Below, in pieces: positions 1,222-51,270 of a stretch of DNA of 64,000 nucleotides. The position numbers were made by a program, and so were the translations under genes. The stretch is from Stenotrophomonas indicatrix (GTDB lineage Bacteria; Pseudomonadota; Gammaproteobacteria; Xanthomonadales; Xanthomonadaceae), in NCBI RefSeq assembly GCF_002750975.1, contig NZ_PEJS01000001.1, positions 1,426,001-1,490,000 on the forward strand, written 5' to 3'. The notes beneath the pieces are model-generated. The model worked only from the letters and a program-made list of their open reading frames with translations. It was not told where the DNA came from and did no database searches. Positions within the stretch are counted from its first letter, which is position 1, and every line of letters starts with the position of its first letter.

Positions 1222-1772
1222 GGCAGGGCTGCGCCCTGCACCTGCAGAGGCCAGAGCAACGGCAACGGCAACGGCAACGGCAAGAGCGTGCATTTCGTGG
1301 GATGGCGGGGTGGGTCCGGTTGCGGGGGACGCCGTGAATCCATCCCTGGAGGCTTGGCCGCGGCATCCATGCCGCGGACACCCCCGCAACCGGACCCACC
1401 CCGCCTTCGACGGATTTCCGCAATCTGTCGGGATGGCATGACTTGTTGTTGGTGGGTGTCGACCTTGGTCGACACGTCGTGGATGCTCTTCGATTCGAAT
1501 TCGAAATATTCGATTCCGATGGAGATTCATCCACGCATGTCGTGGATCCATAACCATCCGTCACCGGGAAACTGTCGAGGGCGGGGCGGTATGGGGCTGC
1601 AGGACCGTTGGCGCCATGGATGGCGCCATCGAGCCCCCATGGATGGGTTTACGGCGTGTCCTGCAGCCCCATACCGCCCCGCCAAACCACAGAAAAGCCA
1701 GAGCCGGCTGTTGCTGTTGCCTCGGCTTTGGCTGTGGCTGTTGCCTCTGCAGGTGCAGGGCGCAGCCCTGCC
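1222..1772. repeat. composite inverted repeat element, copies A and B
   Basis: This fills the non-coding stretch between the MFS gene and pdxY. Copy A has an outer cassette (GGCAGGGCTGCGCCCTGCA from 1222), four tandem AACGGC hexamers (1258-1281), then a perfect 25-bp stem, 1304-1328 with 1381-1405, whose loop holds a smaller palindrome (1358-1377). Copy B lies in the opposite orientation: a perfect 26-bp stem, 1580-1605 with 1658-1683, then a CTGTTG-rich tract and the reversed cassette (about 1742-1772). Between them sits a GTCGAC palindrome (1451-1475). Arm sequences differ between A and B but pair perfectly within each. No convincing ORF is present. Confidence 0.85.
1451..1475. repeat. short palindromic REP, GTCGAC type
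   Basis: The sequence GGTGGGTGTCGACCTTGGTC followed by GACAC forms a hairpin with GTGTCGACC and GGTCGACAC arms. Close relatives occur at 19767-19790, 19823-19845, 48566-48590, 51040-51065, 53225-53270 and 62241-62265, all outside genes. It sits at the centre of the composite A/B element. Confidence 0.7.
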
Positions 1773-19553: not shown

Positions 19554-20051
19554 GGCAGGGCTGCGCCCTGCACCCGCAGAGGCCCTAAAGCAACGGCAAC
19601 GTCAAAAGCCACAGCGGCACTGGCTTTCTGCTGGCTGGGCGGGGCCGTATGGGTTGGCAGGACACGCCGTAAACCCGTCCATGGGGGCTCGATGGCGCCA
19701 TCCATGGCGCCAACGGTCCTGCCAACCCACACGGCCCCACCCCCGACAGATTCCTGCGGCTGTTGGTAGGTGTCGACCTTGGTCGACACATCTGTCAGAT
19801 ATCGAATGAACTCATCCGTGTCGACCAAGGTTGACACCTACCAGGCCCGGACGCTGTTCCAACAGATCGCGGGAAACTGTCGAAGGCGGGGTGGGTCCGG
19901 TTGAGGAGGCGTGAGCCGCATGGATGCGGCGACCGAGCCTACATGGACGTACTTGCAGCGTCCCCCTCAACCGGACCCACCCCGCCAACCCACAGGAACC
20001 CGGCTTCTGCCGTCGACGTTGCCTCTGCAGGTGCAGGGTGCAACCCTGCAG
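19554..20051. repeat. composite inverted repeat element, copies C and D
   Basis: This occupies most of the 687-base gap between secF and fabV and has the same layout as the element at 1222. Copy C: cassette GGCAGGGCTGCGCCCTGCA from 19554, a CAACGG-like tract, then a 26-bp stem (19638-19663 with 19716-19741, 24 pairs). Two GTCGAC-type palindromes follow (19767-19790; 19823-19845). Copy D: a perfect 22-bp stem (19885-19906 with 19965-19986) with inner palindrome GCCGCATGGATGCGGC, and the reversed cassette near 20023-20051. The loop of C is the reverse complement of the loop of B. No gene is credible here. Confidence 0.85.
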
Positions 20052-30356: not shown

Positions 30357-30720
30357 TGCAGGGCTGCGCCCTGCACCCGCCGAGGCCGGAGCAACGGCGC
30401 TGCGGGCGACCACCGCCCAGCAGCAACAGCAACAGCGGGGATCCTGGGGGATGGCCGGGCACTGTGGGTTTGCGGGGACGCCGTAAACCCCCAGACCGGC
30501 CCAGCCGCTGGCGGCTGTGCGTTCGGGCGCTTACGAAGCAGTGCCTCGCAAGCAAAGCGCCCTCACCCATGGGGGCTTGGTCGCCGCATCCATGCGGCTC
30601 ACACCCCGCAAACCCACAGTGCCCCGCCTTCGATAGTTGGCCGCGATCTGCCGGATCTGCCCCCGATCTGTTTCGAGATCTGTTGCTCTGGCTCCTGGCA
30701 GTGCAGGGCTGCAAGCCCTG
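30357..30720. repeat. single long hairpin repeat element, copy E
   Basis: It fills most of the 605-base gap before the quinate block. The cassette (GCAGGGCTGCGCCCTGCA, 30358 on) is followed by a CAACAG tract, then a 25-bp stem (30453-30477 with 30604-30628, one mismatch). The loop is about 50 bases longer than in the other copies and keeps GCCGTAAACCC, CCCATGGGGGCTTGG and the palindrome GCCGCATCCATGCGGC (30583-30598). A second small palindrome (GCAGGGCTGCAAGCCCTGC, near 30702-30720) closes it. No coding signal is seen. Confidence 0.8.
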
Positions 30721-51000: not shown

Positions 51001-51270
51001 GGGGTCAGAGCCTATTGCGCAGCAACGGGATCCGACCCCGTGCCGACCAACGGTCGGCACCCACCAACAGCAGCGGAGATCTGTCGAAGGCGGGGTGGTG
51101 TGGGGCTTCAGGACCGTTGGCGCCATGGATGGCGCCATCGAGCCCCCATGGATGGGTTTACGGCGTGTCCTGAAGCTCCACACCACCCCGCTATCCCTCC
51201 AGCAAGTCTGGGTTGGCTGTTGCTGTTGCTGCGGCCGTGGCCTCTGCGGGTGCCGGGCGCCGCCCGGCCA
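51001..51270. repeat. single long hairpin repeat element, copy F, with flanking palindromes
   Basis: This fills the 332-base gap before uup. A GGGGTC / GACCCC hairpin (51001-51039) and a GTGCCGACC palindrome (51040-51065) precede a 26-bp stem (51089-51114 with 51167-51192) in which the only two non-Watson-Crick pairs are G-T, still paired as G-U in RNA. The 52-base loop is identical to that of copy B. A CTGTTG tract and a diverged reversed cassette (about 51239-51270) follow. No gene is seen. Confidence 0.82.

Follow-up and report, generated by a model that had tools for sequence, protein, structure and literature searches.

Hairpin copies and composites in the window

The interval 1222-1772 of the window (the whole 64,000-nucleotide stretch of Stenotrophomonas indicatrix DNA that was analysed) is a composite element, A-B, in which two copies of a long hairpin stand head to head between two GCAGGGCTGCGCCCTGC cassettes (1223-1239 and 1755-1771). 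CAACGG/GTTGC tracts lie on the outer side of the copies and a SMAG-type REP lies between them. A second composite, C-D (19555-20049), has two cassettes enclosing a head-to-head pair. Strands are given for the F strand, i.e. the strand whose hairpin loops read CANGGANG. Copy A (1301-1408, minus strand) has an outer stem and two hairpins with the loops CATGGATG (first) and CAGGGATG (second), while copy B (1578-1685, plus strand) has CATGGATG in both loops. Copies C (19636-19743, minus strand) and D (19882-19989, plus strand) carry CATGGATG and CATGGACG, the first hairpin of D being of the tandem G.A/A.G type as seen in the sequence. Copy E (30451-30630, minus strand) has CATGGATG as its first loop, its second loop is interrupted by an insertion of approximately 72 nt, and its arms are retained (28 nt, 93% complementary). 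Copy F (51087-51194, plus strand), with CATGGATG in both loops, is single and unpaired. Read along the F strand, each copy opens with an outer arm of approximately 26 nt and a brief junction, which lead into hairpin 1 (loop CATGGATG in the window copies). A linker in which one A is nearly invariant separates this from hairpin 2, which has a loop of the CANGGANG form (interrupted in E) and a five-base bulge; GT or a similar sequence then precedes the complementary arm. In both A-B and C-D the F strands face outward, with palindromic GCAGGGC...GCCCTGC cassettes outside the pair.

All six copies described in the sequence-only reading were located, and they are members of a genome-wide family. Its observation that B and copy F share 52 loop bases is exact, as is the deviation of the arms of copy F by two G-T pairs: the outer 26 pairs are 24 Watson-Crick and two G-T in copy F, 26 Watson-Crick in B, 25 with one mismatch in A, 24 with two G-T in C, and 24 with one A-C and one other in D. 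The CAACGG tract and the cassette are present beside the hairpins as reported, the cassette far above chance expectation (exact at 1223, 1755, 19555 and 30358 and with 2 mismatches at 20033, against 0.25 expected by chance in the window). Two copies do lie inside 1222-1772, but as a composite in opposite orientation and not as one hairpin; the earlier description also made no mention of the two CANGGANG loops, of the arrangement in inverted pairs or of the insertion that E carries. Folding z-scores of -8.3 to -10.2 in eight folds made from one or other strand of window copies, together with the 143 or more hits of a covariance model in the genome, exclude chance.

Family size, distribution and covariation

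The family fold consists of an outer stem of approximately 26 bp, a three-way junction and two small hairpins. In an alignment of 46 copies from the own genome, gathered with a pattern that demanded ANGGAN loops, standard pairs filled 97.3% of pair cells, compared with 74.8% after shuffling and 38 to 48% when the partner was slid. Both sides had changed at 32 of 41 pairs, and none of 500 shuffles matched any of five measures, kinship being ignored. All four helices are variable, with double changes in helix 1 at 23 of 26 pairs. The covariation is very strong, and the earlier statement that the arms change together is borne out far beyond the shuffled and slid controls.

A loop-blind covariance model, R1, was built from 21 copies of the 46-copy set with both hexaloops masked by N. 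A search of this kind, suggested with the original observation, returned matches throughout the own genome, in Stenotrophomonas and in the wider family. The own genome yielded at least 143 matches with E up to 0.01 (150 of 6007 candidates scored). Under strict filters, and with the own genome included in each sample, matches were obtained in 49 of 61 genomes of the genus, in 51 of 198 genomes and 16 of 54 genera of the bacterial family, and in 38 of 274 genomes and 36 of 221 genera of the class. An exact pattern that fixes parts of both loops retrieved, among the matches listed, named Stenotrophomonas and Xanthomonas species in addition to Vulcaniibacterium gelatinicum, MAGs and one record labelled Haliea.

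GGA loops and the RsmA/CsrA motif

Among the 143 own copies found with the loop-blind model, CANGGANG occupies loop 1 in 139, loop 2 in 136 and both loops in 133; both loops conform in 88 of 98 own copies outside the loop-selected starting alignment. The corresponding figures for copies from relatives are 82, 83 and 80 of 85. At the level of the class, in 20 rows that leave out five loci found by the loop-fixing pattern, the motif is found in loop 1 of 16, loop 2 of 18 and both loops of 15; of the five failures, three have a loop 1 of 7, 9 or 10 bases, one reads GTGA in loop 2 and one is a truncated match. The hexaloop, of the form ANGGAN, is closed by C-G in each hairpin. Its second base takes all four letters and its sixth varies, whilst A, G, G and A are nearly invariant; in loop 2 the first N is T, A, G or C, and the last base is usually a pyrimidine (T or C) and only rarely A or G. 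The spacing between the two GGA cores is 23 nt in almost every own copy collected with the pattern.

A single csrA match was found in the own genome, and the encoded protein is very like CsrA of E. coli. Of 37 class-level genomes bearing the element, 33 have csrA; the four in which it was unmatched include three that are 67-88% complete and one (G445) that is 98% complete. The CANGGANG loops correspond to the published RsmA/CsrA motif, with GGA presented in hairpin loops. The consensus in print for RsmE is A/UCANGGANGU/A, and RsmA, RsmE and RsmI of Pseudomonas putida bind a site containing CATGGATG (PMC5864733, PMC6849547).

Among the own copies that miss the motif, three in loop 2 and one in loop 1 have large insertions in the loop. 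Copies approximately 70-80 nt longer than the remainder were seen at L139 (1455-1636), L024 (1816-1997), L027 (1743-1929) and L160 (1421-1602) and in the window at 30451-30630. These insertions are partly palindromic and sit within the GGA loops, as read from the letters of four own copies and E, and they would destroy an RsmA-type site. In the Haliea-labelled record (L255), one copy has both loops enlarged.

Pairs and gene context

With seven further matches added, the own copies number 150 and are arranged as 48 close pairs and 54 singles. The order is head to head in 47 of the 48 pairs (40 of 41 prior to the addition). Head-to-head pairs also occur in the Haliea-labelled record and in genomes carrying TwoAYGGAY RNA, where three close pairs were inspected. 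An array of six alternating copies of two subtypes was seen in a genome of approximately 5.2 Mb (L117, 754-1608). By eye, partners within pairs (L001-L023) often differ in subtype, one being of the GGACCGTT type and the other of the GGTGTCC or GGCGTGAG type, a difference that resembles the left and right ends of a unit. The gaps between paired hairpins (A-B, C-D and other own-genome pairs, by eye) host other repeats, namely SMAG-type REPs (GGTGTCGACC...), ATCCACGC...GCGTGGAT units and GGGGTCAGATCC palindromes.

Flanking genes, called by an own codon-position heuristic at 100 of 102 clusters, are convergent at 37, codirectional at 51 and divergent at 12. Singles between codirectional genes are sense in 11 cases and antisense in 16, and so give no sign of selection for sense cotranscription. 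Upstream of the F strand, base composition as an indicator of an own promoter gives only a diffuse AT-richer stretch.

The gene orientations at these sites, by these heuristic gene calls, would fit an element that acts as an RNA stem at 3' ends, halting exonucleases or terminating transcription, RsmA having no role. The same may be said of the C-D orthologues, which sit directly after terminator-like sequence, and of the Yersinia repeat YPAL, which according to a review might affect the stability of upstream transcripts (PMC2229807). This account is possible but doubtful, as it leaves unexplained why two CANGGANG loops are conserved, why the junction is fixed and why a mismatch is retained, and no consistent U-run follows the stems (20/143 own flanks; 24 class-level rows; L365 has TTTT).

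Orthologous sites and the search for a transposase

R1 was run over all 60 orthologous loci of the A-B and C-D sites. At the A-B site, at least one match was obtained in 10 of the 12 closest genomes (gene identity at least 85%, own included). L187 had no R1 match, yet two copies with large insertions were evident by eye; L182 is empty, with no R1 match and a single cassette. None of 18 more distant loci had an R1 match. At the C-D site, 9 of the 12 closest (at least 91%) were matched; inspection by eye shows a copy with an insertion in L213, L217 stops inside a copy, and L220 is empty, with no R1 match and one degenerate cassette. Four of 18 more distant loci (L223, L231, L235, L236) have copies in the same gap, whose arms are unrelated and beside which no cassette was seen by eye.

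Composites lie between two palindromic cassettes of 17-19 bp and empty sites keep one, although a deletion between cassettes would look identical. The lone palindrome retained at L182 and L220 is of the GCAGGGCTTGCAGCCCTGC type, degenerate in L220. The cassette may be a target duplicated at insertion, or a deletion scar. The CAACGG/CAACAG (GTTGC) tract (approximately 1255-1285 and 1710-1745) differs greatly in length among orthologues, with more than 10 CAACAG units in L210, and could be a contingency-type repeat.

SMAG/GTAG REPs and the TIRYT repeats of S. maltophilia are likewise palindromic, partly paired and present in the same genomes; REPs are only 20-40 bp, and REPs and TIRs adjoin RAYT or TIRYT genes (PMC3733652). 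The hairpin was not found beside the RAYT/TIRYT genes inspected here. The own genome has four Y1_Tnp genes (L031, L032, L033, L034), each with REP-type palindromes of its own; that of L033 is associated with the ATCCACGC unit seen between paired hairpins. The proteins of these four genes had no match in 234 other loci at E 1e-4. In six relatives, R1 found nothing credible at 23 Y1_Tnp loci (a single match had E 0.048), and the eight inspected have terminal repeats of other kinds; in one relative, the Y1_Tnp genes L406 and L412 have ends of the GGGGTCAGATCC and AAAAGGGGACGGAGGGG types. In the genes inspected, the hairpin does not show the association of a GTAG-type repeat with a Y1_Tnp gene that marks REPs and BIMEs with RAYT, and it was rejected as a RAYT/TIRYT transposon end, the Y1_Tnp genes of the own genome and six relatives having other repeats or no R1 match. 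An autonomous gene was also looked for inside two widely spaced pairs: the 863-bp pair L136 encloses an aldolase-like ORF and the 1.6-kb pair L398 a HigA-like ORF (both by eye), with nothing transposase-like in either.

The absence of a transposase beside any copy, for the Y1_Tnp family in the own genome and six relatives, also tells against the element being selfish palindromic DNA only. On that reading, a transposase supplied in trans would recognise folded single-stranded or cruciform DNA, as RAYT does for REPs, and the RsmA-like loops would be its recognition loops. The near-strict head-to-head order of close pairs (47/48), orthologous sites both filled and empty, the lack of sense bias relative to genes and the patchy occurrence in the class (38/274 sampled genomes) are all consistent with this. 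It is nonetheless unlikely, and leaves unexplained why the free positions of the loops match those of CANGGANG.

Which strand folds

Pairs of G-T outnumber those of A-C on the F strand in the own genome (79:23), in relatives (69:6) and in 20 class-level rows (17:1), the cells of the first two sets not being independent, which indicates that one strand is the folded strand. In hairpin 1, 36 of 143 own copies have a tandem G.A/A.G where two Watson-Crick pairs would otherwise stand; a Y.Y mismatch persists at one position in 139 of 143. The reverse-strand equivalents of the G-T, G.A and Y.Y features would destabilise the fold. Minimum energies differ little between strands, so the strand call rests on substitutions and not on energies. 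Against the RsmA reading proposed below, folded single-stranded DNA could give like preferences for G-T and G.A.

The sequence-only reading took compensatory change to imply selection for the paired structure. That view is supported in that the pairing of one strand is favoured; it had left unweighed gene conversion between copies and replicative correction of palindromes, both of which can keep arms alike. Arms kept complementary without selection, by template switching in the palindrome and gene conversion between copies, would agree with the many copies that have near-perfect arms of unrelated sequence (e.g. L026 and L030) and with different subtypes at orthologous sites, but this is improbable, since repair should ignore strand whereas each of the three sets has more G-T than A-C, since correction should erase the Y.Y mismatch and the tandem G.A/A.G, and since orthologues of site B show, in an order not established, G-C (L190), G.A (L183, L184, L188, L189) and T-A (L181) at one outer pair.

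Relation to known families

The core aligns with that of YPAL/RU-2 of Yersinia (the 168-nt RU-2 of PMC2759123, Table 1b) on the F strand only, and the latter folds to the same junction. For one RU-2 sequence and five cores, alignment scores were 43 to 61, compared with 14 to 17 for the other strand and maxima of 22-25 in 500 shuffles per core. YPAL/RU-2 likewise has CAAGGATG and CATGGATG loops, a GAGCCTACATGGATGTATTTACGGCGT stretch and a long palindromic outer stem; it is likewise intergenic and multicopy with filled and empty sites, the YPAL targets having dyad symmetry (PMC2229807, PMC2759123), and filled and empty sites occur for the Stenotrophomonas element at L182 and L220. Unlike YPAL/RU-2, the unit described here frequently consists of two head-to-head copies flanked by palindromic cassettes, and its arms are unrelated in sequence and GC-rich. 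There are at least 143 copies here, compared with 60 intergenic regions for RU-2 in Y. pestis (PMC2759123). The target site duplication of YPAL is 3-26 bp. The YPAL texts, in the portions available, do not name RsmA/CsrA, and no literature joining YPAL to CsrA/RsmA was found in searches whose coverage largely excludes subscription journals.

The reverse strand of the same core has a clear residue-by-residue alignment to Ysr224 (RF02770, Yersinia sRNA 224), which differs in strand and over much of its 5' half; the score of 32.1 bits lies below the gathering score of 70. In TwoAYGGAY RNA (RF01731), too, a junction bearing two GGA hairpins sits on a long stem of low conservation. Tandem GA has been noted in this RNA and CsrA binding proposed (PMC4333381), and its clan, CL00106, also contains RsmW. 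It is multicopy in several genomes, with head-to-head order in L378, L400 and L401. Two AYGGAY-like terminal loops on a junction are present in the Stenotrophomonas element in a looser form, the second base here also being A or G. The window copies gave no match to RF01731 at the gathering score and passed no Rfam threshold, and the own genome (G000) gave no RF01731 match at E 0.001 (9 candidates scored). Among 13 R1-type loci compared with RF01731 in E-value mode, the best reached 35.3 bits (L374) where 43 are required, and one class-level copy was matched below threshold. Conversely, 2 of 20 RF01731 loci match R1: L383 and L387 are above the TwoAYGGAY gathering score and match R1 at the same place on the same strand. 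Other Rfam families retrieved in E-value mode, many of them long hairpins and mostly miRNAs, were set aside as generic; only the TwoAYGGAY and Ysr224 alignments share the core.

Since the RU-2 core aligns, Ysr224 aligns on the reverse strand, L383 and L387 match both models and CsrA binding has been proposed for TwoAYGGAY, the element is filed as YPAL-like and as a putative Csr/Rsm-binding RNA in its mode of action, without being assigned to the curated families RF01731 or RF02770. The sequence-only reading knew of no described family that matched and held that a match to one would tell against it; the homology of the core to YPAL/RU-2 and to the reverse strand of Ysr224, together with the resemblance to TwoAYGGAY RNA, overturns that statement. 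The observation itself is confirmed, and its interpretation is partly supported.

Proposed explanation

At a probability of about 60%, the element is a YPAL-like palindromic repeat of mobile type, scattered through the genome, and one of its strands, if transcribed, displays two RsmA/CsrA-type loops. This reading draws on the family, its structure and covariation, the favoured strand, the loop motif, the homology to YPAL, orthologous sites with and without the element, and the one csrA. Transcription of the F strand would yield a long stem, a three-way junction and two short ANGGAN hairpins. As the GGA cores are 23 nt apart, a single RsmA dimer could clamp both loops. Many copies might jointly titrate RsmA, or they might serve as marks at message 3' ends. 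A transcript entering an outward-facing pair from either side would cross one F copy, so the supply of sites would be independent of direction. Counted against a role for RsmA are the missing sense bias, the csrA unmatched in 4 of 37 genomes, the ANGGAN-selected starting copies, the looser fit at class level (one or both loops off the motif in 5 of 20 rows) and the modelling on the other strand of Ysr224, which alone among the relatives found bears a published sRNA name.

RsmU of Xanthomonas, a member of the same bacterial family, is a 3' UTR RNA with GGA motifs that has been reported as one RsmA-binding RNA; it differs in being processed from one mRNA, comEA, and is likened to the element by description only, not by sequence (PMC7694677). 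Alteration of all four predicted GGA motifs in RsmU left RsmA binding intact (PMC7694677), so GGA loops alone prove little.

If the loops bind RsmA/CsrA, the genome would carry a built-in sponge for that global regulator, and a mobile element could set its free level. With two RsmA-type sites per copy and more than 100 copies, the question of an RsmA antagonist is directly testable. A more speculative extension, offered tentatively, is that hairpins with two RsmA/CsrA-binding sites each have been carried through gammaproteobacterial genomes by a mobile repeat, and that in Stenotrophomonas and Xanthomonas the summed copies, at transcript ends, form the missing distributed RsmA sponge in place of an RNA of the RsmB/RsmY type.

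Three separately named things are linked here: the DNA repeat YPAL, the sRNA entry Ysr224 and the candidate CsrA RNA TwoAYGGAY. Within the searches made, their joining looks new, as do the Stenotrophomonas expansion, the near-strict head-to-head pairs, a candidate RsmA antagonist for xanthomonads and a putative RsmA link for a class of dispersed repeats. The RF02770 entry for Ysr224 appears to be modelled opposite to the strand with the RsmA-type loops and may merit a strand check.
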